Below, in pieces: positions 10,593 through 20,049 of a DNA stretch of 64,000 nucleotides. Positions within the stretch are counted from its first letter, which is position 1. Every line of letters begins with the position of its first letter. Location: positions 1 to 64,000 of the forward strand of contig CANHHG010000002.1 of assembly GCA_947460615.1 (NCBI GenBank), written 5' to 3'. The notes beneath the pieces were generated by a model that was not told the origin of the DNA, searched no databases, and worked only from the letters and a program-made list of their open reading frames with translations. This stretch comes from Bacteroidota bacterium (lineage in GTDB: Bacteria; Bacteroidota; Bacteroidia; Flavobacteriales; Flavobacteriaceae). The translations under genes were made by a program, and so were the position numbers.

Positions 10593-11078
10593 TTACTTTT
10601 TAATTAAAACTCCATCTGCCATGAATGAATAGTTAATTTTAGGCGCTACGATACTATCAATTGCAGCTTGAGATTTGCCCTCATCTTTAGCGTAATGCTT
10701 TAATTCTTCTACAGATTCAATACTCACAAATGCTTTTCCATTAACTATAACTTCCCCTTTTTGTGCATTTTTAGGAACAAAAAAAGCATAATCTTTAAAC
10801 TTTACGAAAGCTTCTTTACCCGAAGGTAATTCAATAGTCATCCAACAACCTTTCTTCTGACAAACATTTTTAATTTTAGATTTAAATTTAATGTCTAACG
10901 TGTCTCCCGGTTTTAGTTTATTGTATTGAACTAACATGTCTTCAGAAGTAACGGCTTTATCAGCAGAGATACTGTCTCCAAAAATTGCATAATCACTAGT
11001 ATTAACTGAAGAAATAGATTCTTTTTTACAACTAGTTAAGGCTAAAAAGCTAATTATTAGGTAAGCGATTTTTTTCAT
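10593..11078 (-). CDS. DUF4920 domain lipoprotein
   Basis: A 161-residue lipoprotein (lipobox LTSC, Cys17). The start is the ATG at 11078; the TTG two codons upstream is not needed. The DUF4920 core spans about residues 35-155 and includes VCQKKGCWM, a conserved Cys-x4-Cys-Trp element that could bind metal or be redox-active. Its gene is the first of a three-gene unit with the heme lipoprotein and mnmD, and a TATTTTTG box lies 36 bases upstream. The pairing with a c-type heme lipoprotein hints at an envelope redox or metal task, but the function is not known. Confidence 0.8.
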   Translation of the reverse strand: MKKIAYLIISFLALTSCKKESISSVNTSDYAIFGDSISADKAVTSEDMLVQYNKLKPGDTLDIKFKSKIKNVCQKKGCWMTIELPSGKEAFVKFKDYAFFVPKNAQKGEVIVNGKAFVSIESVEELKHYAKDEGKSQAAIDSIVAPKINYSFMADGVLIKK

Positions 11079-11114
11079 AATCAAGTATTTAGTTGATGAA
11101 TTTTATTACACCTG

Positions 11115-14303: not shown

Positions 14304-14843
14304 TTGGAAGAAAAAGAGTTCATATCACAACTGTTAAACCCAATAACTCAAAACAACGCGTTTCAAAAATTATTGTATGATTATAAGCGACCACTTTATA
14401 ATCATATAAGAAATATAGTTTTGGATCACGATGACACCAATGATGTATTACAAAATACATTTATCAAGGTTTATCAGAATTTAAATAAATTTAAAGGGGA
14501 AAGCAAATTGTATTCTTGGATTTACAGAATTGCCACTAACGAATCGATTACTTTTATTAATAAAAAAGCAAAATTAAGAGGTACTTCAAGCAGTGAACTA
14601 AAATCAAAAATAGTTGATAATCTTGAGGCTGACTCCCATTTTAATGGTGATGAAATCCAACTTAAATTACAAAAAGCAATACATACCTTGCCTGAAAAAC
14701 AACAATTGGTCTTTAAAATGCGCTATTTTGAAGAAATGAAATATGGGGAAATGTCTATTATTTTGGGGACATCAGTTGGAGCACTAAAAGCCTCTTATCA
14801 CCTTGCTGTAAAAAAAATTGAAATTTTAATGACAAAGGATTAA
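14304..14843 (+). CDS. ECF-type RNA polymerase sigma factor
   Basis: A 179-residue sigma-70 family protein of ECF size. Region 2 is seen at about residues 22-85 (DTNDVLQNTFIKVYQNL and SKLYSWIYRIATNE) and region 4 at about 125-175 (LPEKQQLVFKMRYFEEMKYGEMS, then GTSVGALKASYH). No in-frame ATG lies between the upstream stop and the conserved start, so the TTG at 14304 is taken as the start. The next genes encode a membrane protein (likely anti-sigma) and a Spy-like exported protein, forming an envelope-sensing unit. Its promoter targets are unknown. Confidence 0.9.
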   Translation: MEEKEFISQLLNPITQNNAFQKLLYDYKRPLYNHIRNIVLDHDDTNDVLQNTFIKVYQNLNKFKGESKLYSWIYRIATNESITFINKKAKLRGTSSSELKSKIVDNLEADSHFNGDEIQLKLQKAIHTLPEKQQLVFKMRYFEEMKYGEMSIILGTSVGALKASYHLAVKKIEILMTKD

Positions 14844-14873
14844 ACCAAAATAAAATTAAATTGTCTAAAAAGC

Positions 14874-15284
14874 ATGAATAAGTTTAAATTAAATAATGAA
14901 AATAAAATTCCCTCTGGATTTATAATTCCTGAAGGGTATTTTGAACAATTTACAGTTGAATTAAATAACAAAATAAACCTACCTAAATCTAGGGTTAAAG
15001 TTATTTCGATGAATACTAAAAGAGGGATAACTTCAATTGCGGCAATATTTATTGTAGCTTTATCAGTAAGCATTTATTCAAAAATGGCGGTGAGTAATTC
15101 TGATAAAAATAATACAACTGAAAATTACCTCACAAATCATTCTGAAATTAGCCAATACGATTTAATTACATTATTGGATAAAAAAGACATTGAAAATTTA
15201 AGTATTGAATTGAATAGTGACAACTCAAAAATTGATGAGGAATTTGCCAATACAAATGAAATAGAGAATTATTTAACAGAATAA
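14874..15284 (+). CDS. putative anti-sigma factor, single-pass membrane protein
   Basis: A 136-residue protein with an 45-residue cytoplasmic N-terminus (IPSGFIIPEGYFEQF), one transmembrane segment (about 50-68, TSIAAIFIVALSVSIYS) and an acidic periplasmic tail. It sits directly after the ECF sigma gene, 30 bases apart, as anti-sigma factors do, and shows the PEGYFE-type start I associate with the flavobacterial version. No zinc-binding HxxxCxxC motif is present, so it is not a ZAS-type anti-sigma factor. The role is inferred from topology and position. Confidence 0.65.
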   Translation: MNKFKLNNENKIPSGFIIPEGYFEQFTVELNNKINLPKSRVKVISMNTKRGITSIAAIFIVALSVSIYSKMAVSNSDKNNTTENYLTNHSEISQYDLITLLDKKDIENLSIELNSDNSKIDEEFANTNEIENYLTE

Positions 15285-15294
15285 AAAATAAAAT

Positions 15295-15756
15295 ATGAAA
15301 ACTAAAAACACCTTACTAGCGATCTTACTTTTAGTTTCTTTTAGCCTAGTTGCTCAAGGGAAAAAAATGTTGGAGAAAAAAGAAGAAATATTTGCTTTAA
15401 AAGTAGCCTTTATTACCAATAAACTTCCATTAACTAGTAGTGAAGCCGAAAAATTTTGGCCAATTTACAATGCTTTTGAAGACAAACAATTTGAACTAAA
15501 ACACGAAAAATCATTGGTTTTTTTAAAAAGAATGGATGATGGAGCATTAAGCAAAATGTCTGAAAAAGAGGCCGCTTCTTTGTTGGCCAAAATGGAATCT
15601 AATGAAGAAGAAATTTTTCAAATGCGAAAAAAATTATTAATCAGTTTAAAACCTATTCTAAGCCAAGTAAAATTAATAAAGCTTAGAAAAGCAGAAGAAG
15701 AATTTAATAAAAAATTATTACAACAATATATGAAAAAAGGGCCTAGAAATAACTAG
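15295..15756 (+). CDS. Spy/CpxP-like exported protein (sensor of the ECF system)
   Basis: A 153-residue protein with a signal peptide (about 1-21, ending SLVAQG). The mature part is a charged helical bundle. LTSSEAEKFWPIYNAFEDKQ corresponds to the LTxxEaxxFWPiY motif common to flavobacterial 'sensor of ECF-type sigma factor' proteins, which resemble Spy/CpxP. It is the third gene of the sigma unit, 10 bases after the putative anti-sigma gene, and probably works in the periplasm as a chaperone-like sensor. The stop codon is part of the terminator hairpin. Confidence 0.75.
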   Translation: MKTKNTLLAILLLVSFSLVAQGKKMLEKKEEIFALKVAFITNKLPLTSSEAEKFWPIYNAFEDKQFELKHEKSLVFLKRMDDGALSKMSEKEAASLLAKMESNEEEIFQMRKKLLISLKPILSQVKLIKLRKAEEEFNKKLLQQYMKKGPRNN

Positions 15757-15767: not shown

Positions 15768-16379
15768 TTATTCAAATTCAAAAACAAAAGGCTCAACTAA
15801 CATTTTATCTGCGATTAAATCTATCCTTTCAGAGAGATAATCTGAGAATATCAACCGTTGTGTTTTGATTATACTATTAGAAATCCTAACAATTTTAGTG
15901 TCATGGCGCAATTTTAAAATAGTATCGGCATCATCAATTACAAACATTTTCAATCGATTTACATTATAACCAGCAGTAGAAAACATATTGCTTAACCGGT
16001 TTGGTGTACCAATTAAAACATCTATTCCAGTAGAAATATAGTTTTTATCATATTCGAGATCGCCTTTGTCGTGAACACCATAAACTCTTAAATTGGTTTT
16101 ACTTCCCAATTTTTCGAAAAGTTCTTCCATTTCAAGCACTTTCACTTTGTCTTCAACAATAATCAATGCTCTTGGTGATTCCTCACCTTCACTAACCAAT
16201 TGCTGAATAACATTTAATACAATCGTTACTGATTTACCTGATCCTATTGGAGAAATTACAATACAATCCGCGCCACTTTTTATGGTTGAAAAAGTTTCTC
16301 TTTGCATTTGATTTGCATCAGTCAATCCTGATTCTTCGAGAGCTTCTTGTAATTTTTCGTTTATTTTTTTTAGTTTCAT
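15768..16379 (-). CDS. degenerate single-domain DEAD-box-like protein
   Basis: A 203-residue protein that covers only the first RecA-like domain of a DEAD-box helicase. The Q region (GLTDANQMQ), a Walker A loop (SPIGSGKS, 43-50) and a GTPNRL motif are kept. Motif II reads DDAD (149-152) instead of DEAD, and the SAT motif is replaced by SDY (179-181). The second RecA domain with motifs IV-VI is absent and the gene ends cleanly at a terminator. It may bind nucleotide, but strand unwinding is unlikely. I have the impression that similar short forms occur in other flavobacteria, so it may be a stable family rather than a fresh truncation. Confidence 0.8.
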   Translation of the reverse strand: MKLKKINEKLQEALEESGLTDANQMQRETFSTIKSGADCIVISPIGSGKSVTIVLNVIQQLVSEGEESPRALIIVEDKVKVLEMEELFEKLGSKTNLRVYGVHDKGDLEYDKNYISTGIDVLIGTPNRLSNMFSTAGYNVNRLKMFVIDDADTILKLRHDTKIVRISNSIIKTQRLIFSDYLSERIDLIADKMLVEPFVFEFE

Positions 16380-16434: not shown

Positions 16435-16602
16435 TCATTTAAAATCACATTCACATTTTTCATAATTCCAACTACCACTTTTATCCAAACAATTATCAAT
16501 TTGAATAAATCGGAATATTTTATATCCAATAAAAAGGAGTATTATCAAAATCGTTATCAATACGCTCAATTTCTTTTTGAAATCTAAGTTTCTTAGTCTC
16601 AT
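16435..16602 (-). CDS. short membrane-anchored protein with Cys-rich tail
   Basis: A 55-residue protein starting at the ATG at 16602. A longer reading from 16680 would overlap the response regulator gene and is less likely. It has a basic N-terminus (MRLRNLDFKKK), one transmembrane segment (about 12-31), then IDNCLDKSGSWNYEKCECDF. The CLDxGGxWNYExxxC pattern recurs in small flavobacterial membrane proteins of unknown function; the cysteines would lie outside the cytoplasm. It is 28 bases after the response regulator gene on the same strand. Confidence 0.5.
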   Translation of the reverse strand: MRLRNLDFKKKLSVLITILIILLFIGYKIFRFIQIDNCLDKSGSWNYEKCECDFK

Positions 16603-16630: not shown

Positions 16631-17794
16631 TTATTTACTTGCAAATAAATGAATGTCCGTTTCAGAAATTTCACTTCCACTCAGTATAATTAATCTTTCT
16701 ACAATATTTCTTAATTCTCTAATATTTCCTGTCCAATCGTATTCTTGCATCAATTTTATTGCTTCATTAGAAAATGATTTAGGTGCAATTCCTTGTTCTG
16801 CAGTAATTTTTTCAGTAAAATGGTTTATTAATAAAGGAATATCGTCACGTCTTTCGTTTAATCCTGGAACTTTAATTAAAATTACTGCCAAACGATGGTA
16901 TAAATCTTCACGAAAACGTCCTTTTTCAATCTCCTTTTTTAAATCTTTATTTGTTGCAGCAATTACGCGGACATCCACTTTAATGTCTTTATCTGCTCCC
17001 ACTCGCGTAATTACATTTTCTTGCAGTGCTCTTAAAACTTTTGCTTGGGCGGATAAACTCATGTCCCCTATTTCATCTAAAAATAAAGTTCCTTTGTCGG
17101 CTGCTTCAAATTTTCCAGCCCTATCTTTTATTGCAGAGGTAAAAGCACCTTTAACATGACCAAAAAGTTCACTCTCTATTAATTCAGATGGAATCGCAGC
17201 ACAATTAACTTCAATCAAAGGAAAATTAGAACGTTCACTTTTGTCATGAAGTTGATGCGCAACCAATTCTTTCCCTGTTCCGTTTGGTCCAGTAATCAAA
17301 ACTCGAGCTTCAGTTTTAGCTACTTTATCAACCATCAATTTAATATGATTAATGGCCTCGCTTTCGCCAATCATTTCATAGTTTTTGCTAACAATTTTCT
17401 TTAGAATTTTATTTTCTACCACCAATTGCTTTTTATCTAAAGCATTTCGAACTGTGTTCAATAATCGATTTAAATCCGGTGGTTTTGAAATATAATCAAA
17501 AGCACCTAGACGCATGGTTTGAATAGCTGTTTCCATATCTCCGTGACCTGAAATCATTACAACTGGAATTTCGGGTTTAATTTTTTTAACTGCTTGAAGT
17601 AATTCAACACCGTCCATTTTGGGCATTTTAATATCGCACAAAACCAAATCATAATCGAATTGAGCTATTTTTTCATATCCAATACTACCATCCTCAGCCT
17701 CTTCTACTTGATAAGTTTCGTTTTCTTCAGATAGAATTTTTGTTAAAACCCTTCTAATTGACGCTTCGTCTTCAATAATTAATATCTTACTCAT
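16631..17794 (-). CDS. sigma-54-dependent response regulator lacking a DNA-binding domain
   Basis: A 387-residue NtrC-type protein. The start is the ATG at 17794 (MSKILIIEDE); the upstream TTG is not used. The receiver domain (1-120) has phosphoacceptor Asp54 and Lys104. The AAA+ domain (about 140-370) has Walker A GPNGTGK (169-175), a sigma-54 contact loop reading GAFTSA (216-221) instead of the usual GAFTGA, and LFLDEIG as Walker B. The protein stops at 387, where relatives continue with a Fis-type helix-turn-helix. It follows the ABC permease gene by 18 bases. No sensor kinase is nearby. Confidence 0.93.
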   Translation of the reverse strand: MSKILIIEDEASIRRVLTKILSEENETYQVEEAEDGSIGYEKIAQFDYDLVLCDIKMPKMDGVELLQAVKKIKPEIPVVMISGHGDMETAIQTMRLGAFDYISKPPDLNRLLNTVRNALDKKQLVVENKILKKIVSKNYEMIGESEAINHIKLMVDKVAKTEARVLITGPNGTGKELVAHQLHDKSERSNFPLIEVNCAAIPSELIESELFGHVKGAFTSAIKDRAGKFEAADKGTLFLDEIGDMSLSAQAKVLRALQENVITRVGADKDIKVDVRVIAATNKDLKKEIEKGRFREDLYHRLAVILIKVPGLNERRDDIPLLINHFTEKITAEQGIAPKSFSNEAIKLMQEYDWTGNIRELRNIVERLIILSGSEISETDIHLFASK

Positions 17795-17812
17795 TCTATT
17801 ATAATTTATCAA

Positions 17813-19117
17813 TTAGTATTTTAACCACTTGTATAATTCTTTCCAAGTTGGTTTTTTACCATACATTAATATACCAACACGGTAAATTTTTGATGCAAAC
17901 CACACTACAAAAAAGAAGGTTCCAAAGAGAATTGTAATTGAAATTAGTATTTGCCACCAAGGAACACCAAAAGGTATTCTCATTAACATAACAATTGGAG
18001 AAGTCAGAGGAATCATTGAAAAGATTGTTGCGACATTCCCATGCGGATCATTCATAACAGTGAAAAAACCTATATAAACACCTAAAATTAGCGGCAATAT
18101 TATTGGTAACAAAAATTGTTGAGAATCAGTTTCATTGTCAACAGCTGCGCCAATTGCAGCGTAGAATGAACTGTATAAAAAGTAACCACCAATAAAATAA
18201 ATTACAAAACAAATTAAAAGTGAAGCTATTGGCAAATTCAATAATTCATTGAAGTACAATTGAGCAATTGAGCCAAATTCCTGCTGTGCACTATGAAGCA
18301 TTTCAGGAGGAATATTAGATGTTGGAGTCGCATTTATTCCGAAGAAAATGGAAACAGAAAATACTAATGTCAAACCAACTATGGTCCAAATTAAAAATTG
18401 TAAAATTCCCGCTAATGAAGTTCCAATGATTTTTCCCATCATTAATTGAAATGGTTTAACCGAAGAAATAATAATTTCAATAATCCTATTGGTTTTTTCT
18501 TCGATCACACTTCTCATAACCATATTGCCATAAATAACAATAAACATCATTATTAGATACCCAAAAGCCCCACCAATTGCAATCTTTATTTCATTAATTC
18601 CCTTCAAACTATCTTCACCAGTAGCTTTCTTGAGTTCCAAATTGACTTCAGCTTGAGCGTTATTAATTGCTAATGTATCGAGTTTAGCTAATTTAAAATT
18701 TTCATTGGTGATTTTATTTGAAATAACTTCTTGCACATGATCTACAAAAGTAATACTCGGACTATCATTGGAAACATATTGGATTTTACTTTCTAATAAT
18801 TTAATATCATTCGTTTTTGGAATATAAATTAGTCCTTCATAACGCTCCTTTTTAATACTATCTTTAATACTATTTACATCAATATTTGATAAATTTATGT
18901 AATTATATTCCTCAGAATTTTTAAATTCGGCTACAAATATTCCAGTCTCATCATGAAGAGCAACTTGTTTAACATCCGCTTTTAAGGAACTCAAATAACT
19001 TACAAAAACACCGATTCCAACAAACAACAACGGACTCAAAAAAGTCATTACAATAAATGATTTATTTCGAACTTTGGATATAAATTCTCTCCTTATAATT
19101 AATACTATTATGCTCAT
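17813..19117 (-). CDS. ABC-2 type transporter permease (NatB-like)
   Basis: A 434-residue membrane protein. One N-terminal transmembrane segment (about 20-42) precedes a large extracytoplasmic domain (about 45-185), then five to six hydrophobic segments to residue 415. The conserved VMRSVIEEKTNRIIEIIISSVKPFQLMMGKI stretch (residues about 203-233) is the ABC-2/NatB signature. It pairs with the ATPase gene 11 bases upstream. Substrates of this group include Na+ and unknown compounds, and none can be assigned here. The response regulator gene follows closely and could be co-transcribed. Confidence 0.9.
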   Translation of the reverse strand: MSIIVLIIRREFISKVRNKSFIVMTFLSPLLFVGIGVFVSYLSSLKADVKQVALHDETGIFVAEFKNSEEYNYINLSNIDVNSIKDSIKKERYEGLIYIPKTNDIKLLESKIQYVSNDSPSITFVDHVQEVISNKITNENFKLAKLDTLAINNAQAEVNLELKKATGEDSLKGINEIKIAIGGAFGYLIMMFIVIYGNMVMRSVIEEKTNRIIEIIISSVKPFQLMMGKIIGTSLAGILQFLIWTIVGLTLVFSVSIFFGINATPTSNIPPEMLHSAQQEFGSIAQLYFNELLNLPIASLLICFVIYFIGGYFLYSSFYAAIGAAVDNETDSQQFLLPIILPLILGVYIGFFTVMNDPHGNVATIFSMIPLTSPIVMLMRIPFGVPWWQILISITILFGTFFFVVWFASKIYRVGILMYGKKPTWKELYKWLKY

Positions 19118-19128
19118 GGCTTTTTAAT

Positions 19129-20049
19129 TTATTTACTTACAGTTTGAATAAAAATATCATTTACGCTTGGAATTTTCTCAACAAAATGGGTTACTTGACC
19201 TTTACTGGTTAATATATTCAATAACTCATTTGGCAATGAATTTCCAAGGTTTATTTCTAATTTTAATTCGTTGTTTAGTGATTTGAAGTTAGTAGGCTGA
19301 ATGGTGTAATTTTGAGTAATTGCTAGTATTAAACCTTCTACATTATCGGTTAAAATTCCTACTTCAAAACTATTAGTTCTAAATTGTTTTTTTACGTCAT
19401 CTAAACGGCCTTCAATAAGTTTGTTTGACTGATGAATTAATGCAATATGATCACATAGTTCTTCAACACTTTCCATTCTATGTGTTGAGAAAATAATGGT
19501 TGAACCTTGTTCTTGAAGTGCTAAAATTTCGTCTTTTATTATATTTGCATTTACTGGATCAAAACCTGAAAAAGGTTCATCAAAAATTAATAATTTAGGT
19601 TTATGTAAAACACAAACTACAAATTGAATTTTCTGAGCCATTCCTTTAGAAAGTTCCTGGATTTTTTTGTTCCACCAACCTTGAATTCCCAGTCTATCGA
19701 ACCAATAATCCAATTGAATTTTAGCTTCTGCTTTAGACAATCCTTTCATTTGTGCTAAATACAAGCATTGCTCACCCACTTTCATTGATTTATACAATCC
19801 TCTCTCTTCTGGTAAATATCCAATATGCTGAATATGTTTTGGACTTAACTTTTCACCATCAAGTATTATATCGCCACTATCGGGAATAGTAATTTGATTT
19901 ATAATCCGAATTAAAGAAGTTTTTCCGGCACCATTTGGACCTAATAGTCCGTAAATACTACCTTTAGGCACAGATAATGATACTTCATTGAGTGCTGTAT
20001 AATCTCCATATTTTTTTACAACTTTATTAACTTCAAGAATAGTACTCAT
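19129..20049 (-). CDS. ABC transporter ATP-binding protein (NatA-like)
   Basis: A 306-residue ATPase: Walker A GPNGAGKTS (near residue 38), Q-loop region, signature ELSKGMAQK in place of LSGGQ, Walker B LLIFDEPFSGFDP, and the switch His in IFSTHRM. The C-terminal about 90 residues form the extra domain usual in this exporter subgroup. It drives the permease encoded directly downstream. First gene of the transporter/response-regulator group; the dnaJ terminator at 20105-20140 lies between it and the heat-shock genes. Confidence 0.92.
   Translation of the reverse strand: MSTILEVNKVVKKYGDYTALNEVSLSVPKGSIYGLLGPNGAGKTSLIRIINQITIPDSGDIILDGEKLSPKHIQHIGYLPEERGLYKSMKVGEQCLYLAQMKGLSKAEAKIQLDYWFDRLGIQGWWNKKIQELSKGMAQKIQFVVCVLHKPKLLIFDEPFSGFDPVNANIIKDEILALQEQGSTIIFSTHRMESVEELCDHIALIHQSNKLIEGRLDDVKKQFRTNSFEVGILTDNVEGLILAITQNYTIQPTNFKSLNNELKLEINLGNSLPNELLNILTSKGQVTHFVEKIPSVNDIFIQTVSK

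Follow-up and report, generated by a model that had tools for sequence, protein, structure and literature searches.

The gene and its surroundings

The window, a stretch of 64,000 nucleotides from a flavobacterial genome (contig CANHHG010000002.1, positions 1 to 64,000), carries on its minus strand a gene for a mildly acidic protein (pI 5.15) that resembles the first half of a DEAD-box helicase. The gene and its upstream neighbours are as follows.

15768..16379, minus strand: DEAD-box pseudohelicase gene, single RecA1 domain, 203 aa (ATG start; short orthologues; model pLDDT 85.7)
16435..16602, minus strand: small candidate ORF between the response regulator and pseudohelicase genes, 55 aa from ATG or 81 aa from GTG (ORF list)
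16631..17812, minus strand: sigma-54-dependent response regulator, upstream neighbour, kept beside the pseudohelicase in the genus (Response_reg and Sigma54_activat domains; synteny)
17813..20049, minus strand: ABC-2 permease and ABC ATPase genes, upstream, in the same order in the compared loci of the genus (domain matches; synteny)

In the loci of the genus that we compared, the gene order is GrpE, DnaJ, ABC ATPase, ABC permease, sigma-54 response regulator and pseudohelicase (GrpE and DnaJ being named by sequence and position). Other genera have different neighbours, and there the start is often preceded, at about 26–34 bases, by a Bacteroidota-type -7 box (TATCTTTG or TATATTTG). Synteny thus holds at the level of the genus only. 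Since no neighbour gene is universal among the loci compared, the genome context yields no function.

The product of the small candidate ORF (16435–16602) would have a single hydrophobic stretch, with two cysteines close to the end of the chain. On the plus strand, positions 14304–15756 hold an ECF sigma factor gene followed by genes for a protein of 136 aa that is likely to have a membrane stretch (an anti-sigma candidate) and a charged, secreted-looking protein of 153 aa; the latter two have no Pfam or NCBIfam match. A DUF4920 (PF16267) protein is encoded at 10593–11084 on the minus strand, and several Mucilaginibacter loci, L191 among them, also have a similar-looking protein close to the dead helicase, possibly by chance.

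A single RecA domain with altered motifs

The Pfam DEAD model (PF00270) matches residues 24–179 of the window protein with an E-value of 3.1e-23. No Pfam match to Helicase_C is found in the 203 residues and motifs IV–VI are absent, in agreement with the sequence-only reading, which had recognized only the first RecA domain. Curated helicase models (RhlE1, CshA and others) are matched over the first half only and far below their cut-offs. Only 12 bases separate the stop codon from the end of the convergent ORF 15295..15756, which leaves no room for a hidden second domain downstream. The motif positions, all on the minus strand, are given below with their conservation in the sets described in the next section.

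16302..16304, minus strand: Q-motif glutamine Q26, kept (99/100 short, 44/44 Sphingobacteriaceae)
16230..16253, minus strand: Walker A SPIGSGKS, residues 43–50, kept, with its first half altered (Lys in 100/100 short Flavobacteriaceae, 44/44 Sphingobacteriaceae)
16146..16154, minus strand: EDK, residues 76–78, in place of motif Ia PTRE (Lys here in 99/100 short forms)
15996..16010, minus strand: motif Ib GTPNR, residues 124–128 (TPNR 125–128), TP kept (T 100/100, P 99/100)
15924..15935, minus strand: motif II DDAD, residues 149–152, Asp for the catalytic Glu (Asp in 99/100 short, 41/44 Sphingobacteriaceae; Glu in 32/32 canonical)
15837..15845, minus strand: SDY, residues 179–181, in place of SAT (SAT in 32/32 canonical; variable residues in the family)

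SPIGSGKS, DDAD and SDY can be read directly in the 203-aa ORF just as they had been reported, and the minus-strand DNA at 15924–15935 is GAT GAT GCC GAT. Compared with a DEAD-box helicase, the window protein has the RecA1 fold (PF00270 homology), the Q motif and the GK[ST] of Walker A; it lacks the D-E-x-D sequence with the catalytic Glu, SAT, PTRE and GG, and the second RecA domain. A helicase fold whose catalytic motifs are gone and conservation under purifying selection are two of the traits behind the use of 'pseudohelicase' for Utp25, and the window protein has both.

Spread, length and selection

Of 36 genomes sampled in the genus, 35 have a short orthologue by whole-genome search, and a profile search finds one in 105 of 301 Flavobacteriaceae genomes (counting listed rows with short open frames). 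Judging by gene content and by how many genera it holds, the family searched is probably Flavobacteriaceae and the genus probably Flavobacterium. The profile separates the short forms (216–323 bits) from full-length paralogues in Flavobacteriaceae (140 bits or less). A second family of the same order (code f7) has short forms as well, of 202–217 aa. Orthologues are always about 200–260 aa long, as the sequence-only reading would have it. Its alternative, that close relatives have a second RecA domain and the window gene a frameshift, does not hold: the short orthologues all share one end point, and the relatives that do have a second RecA domain are distant ones (Sphingobacteriaceae) in which this domain is dead too. 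A terminal extension of at least 12 residues is present in 33 of 100 short Flavobacteriaceae proteins and is strongly acidic in the genus members inspected; the acidic extension seen in congeners is missing from the window protein.

For several of the closest pairs, dN/dS (NG86) is 0.03–0.10, and the median over 344 congener pairs, for which dS is partly saturated, is 0.12. Judging by these ratios, the short family is under strong purifying selection. Together with the orthologue collection and the motif counts, this bears out the proposal of a stable conserved family in which helicase activity is unlikely.

The half length and the motifs, degraded at first sight, would suit a pseudogene, a frameshift or an assembly error of a normal helicase. 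A similar length in more than 100 genomes, the lack of any stop or shift, the low dN/dS in close pairs and the lack of a RecA2 domain downstream make such an origin next to impossible. We also searched for a split gene with a separate RecA2 partner, using a dead-RecA2 profile against the genome itself and 40 relatives, and rejected it: all convincing matches lie in ORFs of canonical helicase length, and those in the genome itself belong only to other, canonical helicases of 423–668 aa. A phage or plasmid origin was discarded, as the 23 phage and 106 plasmid matches are all below 60% identity (25–29% among the matches listed). PADLOC matches to large defence helicases are weak and partial (E ≥ 2.9e-5), and we do not regard the gene as a defence gene.

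Motif conservation across the family

We counted motif residues in three sets, made up of 100 short Flavobacteriaceae proteins, 44 proteins from Sphingobacteriaceae and 32 canonical helicases. The elements expected to bind nucleotide are retained in all three sets: the Q-motif Gln in 99/100, 44/44 and 28/32 (the remaining four canonical rows are gapped there), and the Walker A Lys in 100/100, 44/44 and 31/32, with the preceding Gly in 98 of the 100 short forms. The TP of motif Ib is likewise nearly invariant in the three sets. By contrast, the GG motif is gone in 100/100 short forms and PTRE has become [EK]DK (more loosely xDK), its Lys being present in 99/100. In DEAD-box helicases both motifs contact RNA, and the RNA-binding or regulatory role suggested by the sequence-only reading is a conjecture.

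At the first position of motif II, 63 of the 100 short forms have Asp, 35 have Glu and two have His. The constant part of the motif is x-D-A-[DE], and SDY is one among many versions of the lost SAT. Conservation of DDAD and SDY among the orthologues had been put forward as a check; DDA[DE] turned out to be a trait of the family, but SDY is not conserved and only the loss of SAT is.

The family thus lacks residues on which DEAD-box helicases depend for hydrolysis, coupling and unwinding, and we deduce that hydrolysis has probably been lost. A Glu-to-Asp change in motif II usually cripples turnover and does not always abolish it. One could thus imagine that the DDAD or EDAE site still hydrolyses ATP once a partner supplies the missing arginine, and that the protein serves as a slow nucleotide switch. 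The Walker A Lys and Gly counts in the short set speak for such an ATPase, which we nevertheless consider very improbable: Glu is replaced by Asp in 99/100, the first Asp by Glu or His in 37/100, SAT is lost, four f7 members have no P-loop at all and the two-domain relatives lack motifs V and VI.

The four f7 members, out of six, have lost the whole P-loop/Walker A and retain TPxR and the length:

L145, 6336–6944: f7 member without Walker A
L146, 5778–6386: f7 member without Walker A
L147, 1545–2156: f7 member without Walker A
L148, 3835–4446: f7 member without Walker A

The persistence of length and fold signature in these proteins, and deviations of Walker A in individual members of the same genus as the window protein (L022, L026), are what one would expect of an RNA- or protein-binding module that works independently of nucleotide and keeps its P-loop for fold stability only. 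We find this unlikely, because the Q motif, GK and [ST] are conserved almost totally in the 100 Flavobacteriaceae and 44 Sphingobacteriaceae proteins, which suggests that nucleotide still matters there.

Two-domain dead relatives and a common origin

The closest relatives of the short family are full-length proteins of Sphingobacteriaceae, a family that belongs to another order (425–441 aa in the 40 that were read), with the same changes in RecA1. They are encoded at loci L139–L142, L158 and L191–L270, and a named scan places them mostly in Mucilaginibacter, with further members in Pedobacter, Hufsiella, Daejeonella and Desertivirga. Their RecA2 domain has lost motif V (mostly A-N-E for T-D-x-x-A-R-G) and motif VI (no HRxGRxGR). 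Outside Sphingobacteriaceae, no two-domain dead form was detected in 346 and 297 genomes of the phylum at the thresholds used. The C-terminal tail of these proteins, AFHxKKxSNxK, resembles the SFHEKKEKNQK of a canonical Bacteroidota helicase group that is also represented in the genome of the window (contig C18, 450 aa).

One Mucilaginibacter MAG (L269) has two adjacent copies of the two-domain dead helicase gene on opposite strands. In 23 of 40 Sphingobacteriaceae loci (L191–L240), a gene for a VF530 DNA-binding protein (PF09905, 70–91 aa) lies convergent to and just downstream of the dead helicase gene; the other neighbours change.

A tree of RecA1 domains separates canonical from dead proteins with support of 97/94 and places all short forms, f7 included, in one clade (99/97). 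When the motif columns and the very long row canon_L157 are removed, the two values are 100/99 and 99/97; with canon_L157 retained and the motif columns removed, no branch sets the canonical group apart. In addition, 150/150 dead proteins lack one residue ahead of the SAT strand, a deletion found in 0/32 canonical ones. Because the deletion is shared and the split survives removal of the motif columns, we propose one origin of the dead proteins. The data support a path in which a helicase would have become a dead two-domain protein that was later truncated. As the tree has no root, the case for descent from the FHEKK group is made by the tail and by profile similarity. As far as alignments can tell, the family, its motif losses, the selection acting on it and its common origin are established.

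Predicted structure

An AlphaFold2 model of the window protein, computed from an alignment that included 40 Sphingobacteriaceae RecA1 halves, has a mean pLDDT of 85.7. Among solved structures it matches RecA1 domains of genuine DEAD-box proteins best, with a TM of about 0.9; Hera in complex with AMP and DDX20 in complex with ADP are among them. There is no solved structure of any family member, and the best PDB sequence matches are general DEAD-box proteins. The model of a Sphingobacteriaceae protein shows two RecA domains and a poorly predicted tail (pLDDT 78.6); it aligns with eIF4A across both domains, and its pTM of 0.47 makes the relative domain placement unreliable.

An intact predicted fold in a single RecA1 domain, several canonical helicases in the same genome and no separate RecA2 partner gene would be compatible with a regulatory subunit acting in trans. 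Such a subunit would pair with the RecA2 domain of a full-length helicase (e.g., the C18 paralogue) or with the partner of that helicase, and thereby inhibit or position it. Yet the pseudohelicase gene is not co-localised with a helicase gene, and the interdomain motifs that would face RecA2 (SAT and motif II) are exactly those that were lost; we regard a role of this kind as doubtful.

A model for the pseudohelicase

We favour, as the probable explanation, a conserved and catalytically dead DEAD-box pseudohelicase family that consists of RecA1 only and probably serves RNA or ribosome metabolism as an adaptor that binds ATP. A Bacteroidota two-domain helicase with a C-terminal FHEKK..N tail would have given rise to a relative that lost the motif II Glu, SAT, GG and PTRE, and whose RecA2 domain no longer had motifs V and VI or the arginines in them. 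This two-domain dead form would have survived in Sphingobacteriaceae, and the RecA2 half and the tail would have been lost on the line to Flavobacteriaceae. What would remain in the short protein is the RecA1 fold, together, in most members, with the Q motif and GK[ST] expected to serve ATP binding. From established knowledge of DEAD-box proteins, we infer that it may bind ATP or ADP without cycling, and bound ATP could stabilise its fold or one of its states.

Such a non-hydrolysing binding module, with partner surfaces inherited from an RNA helicase, would most likely be an adaptor or competitor on the partner of a real DEAD-box helicase, or on an RNP, for instance an intermediate in ribosome assembly. 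The acidic tail added in many members of the genus may tune this activity (the window protein has no such tail). The RNA context is an argument from inheritance: the best scores are against RNA helicases, yet the RNA-binding motifs are partly lost. The lack of a conserved partner gene outside the genus also counts against the favoured explanation. Its fullest form, a family of ATP-binding, non-hydrolysing half-helicases that act as stable adaptors or competitors on ribosome assembly or mRNA, with the evolutionary intermediate alive in another bacterial family, is a tentative proposal and less likely than not.

Comparison with known systems

Pseudoenzymes are well studied among kinases, and established pseudohelicases are few. 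We found no paper on the short pseudohelicase family in the literature searched. What this analysis adds is proof across the whole family, a two-domain dead intermediate found in Sphingobacteriaceae, a deletion common to the dead proteins, and family members that have no P-loop. The series from active helicase through dead two-domain protein and dead single domain to single domain without P-loop is visible in living bacteria and permits a direct test of what RecA1 is useful for once unwinding is gone. For a short gene present in many flavobacterial genomes, the automatic label 'DEAD/DEAH box helicase' would mislead on function.

The canonical Bacteroidota helicases with an FHEKK..N tail (the own paralogue G000:C18, 450 aa; nearest NCBIfam models RhlE1 and CshA) share with the window protein the RecA1 fold, the Q motif, the Walker A Lys and TPxR. 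Unlike the window protein, they have DEAD/DEVD, SAT, GG, PTREL and a complete RecA2 that includes motifs V and VI. The dead proteins of Sphingobacteriaceae, a neighbouring group in the tree, resemble the short family in the motif II change, the one-residue deletion, the loss of SAT and, in nearly all of them, the loss of GG, but retain a dead RecA2 and the FHEKK tail (425–441 aa).

PriA of Deinococcus radiodurans is a bacterial helicase relative that has been described as a pseudohelicase (PMC4504706); it belongs to the family of replication-restart DNA helicases and is not a DEAD-box protein. Utp25 (Def), called the first fully validated pseudohelicase, is a DEAD-box pseudohelicase of the SSU processome; growth requires the protein but is unaffected by mutations in its motifs Ia and VI (PMC9539457). 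Like the short family, it is evolutionarily conserved and has kept the DEAD-box fold and lost the catalytic motifs, a likeness at the level of description. In contrast to the family, it is eukaryotic, has two RecA domains and a disordered N-terminus, is essential by experiment and is a component of ribosome assembly (PMC9539457). Utp25 is the nearest working analogue of the short pseudohelicase.
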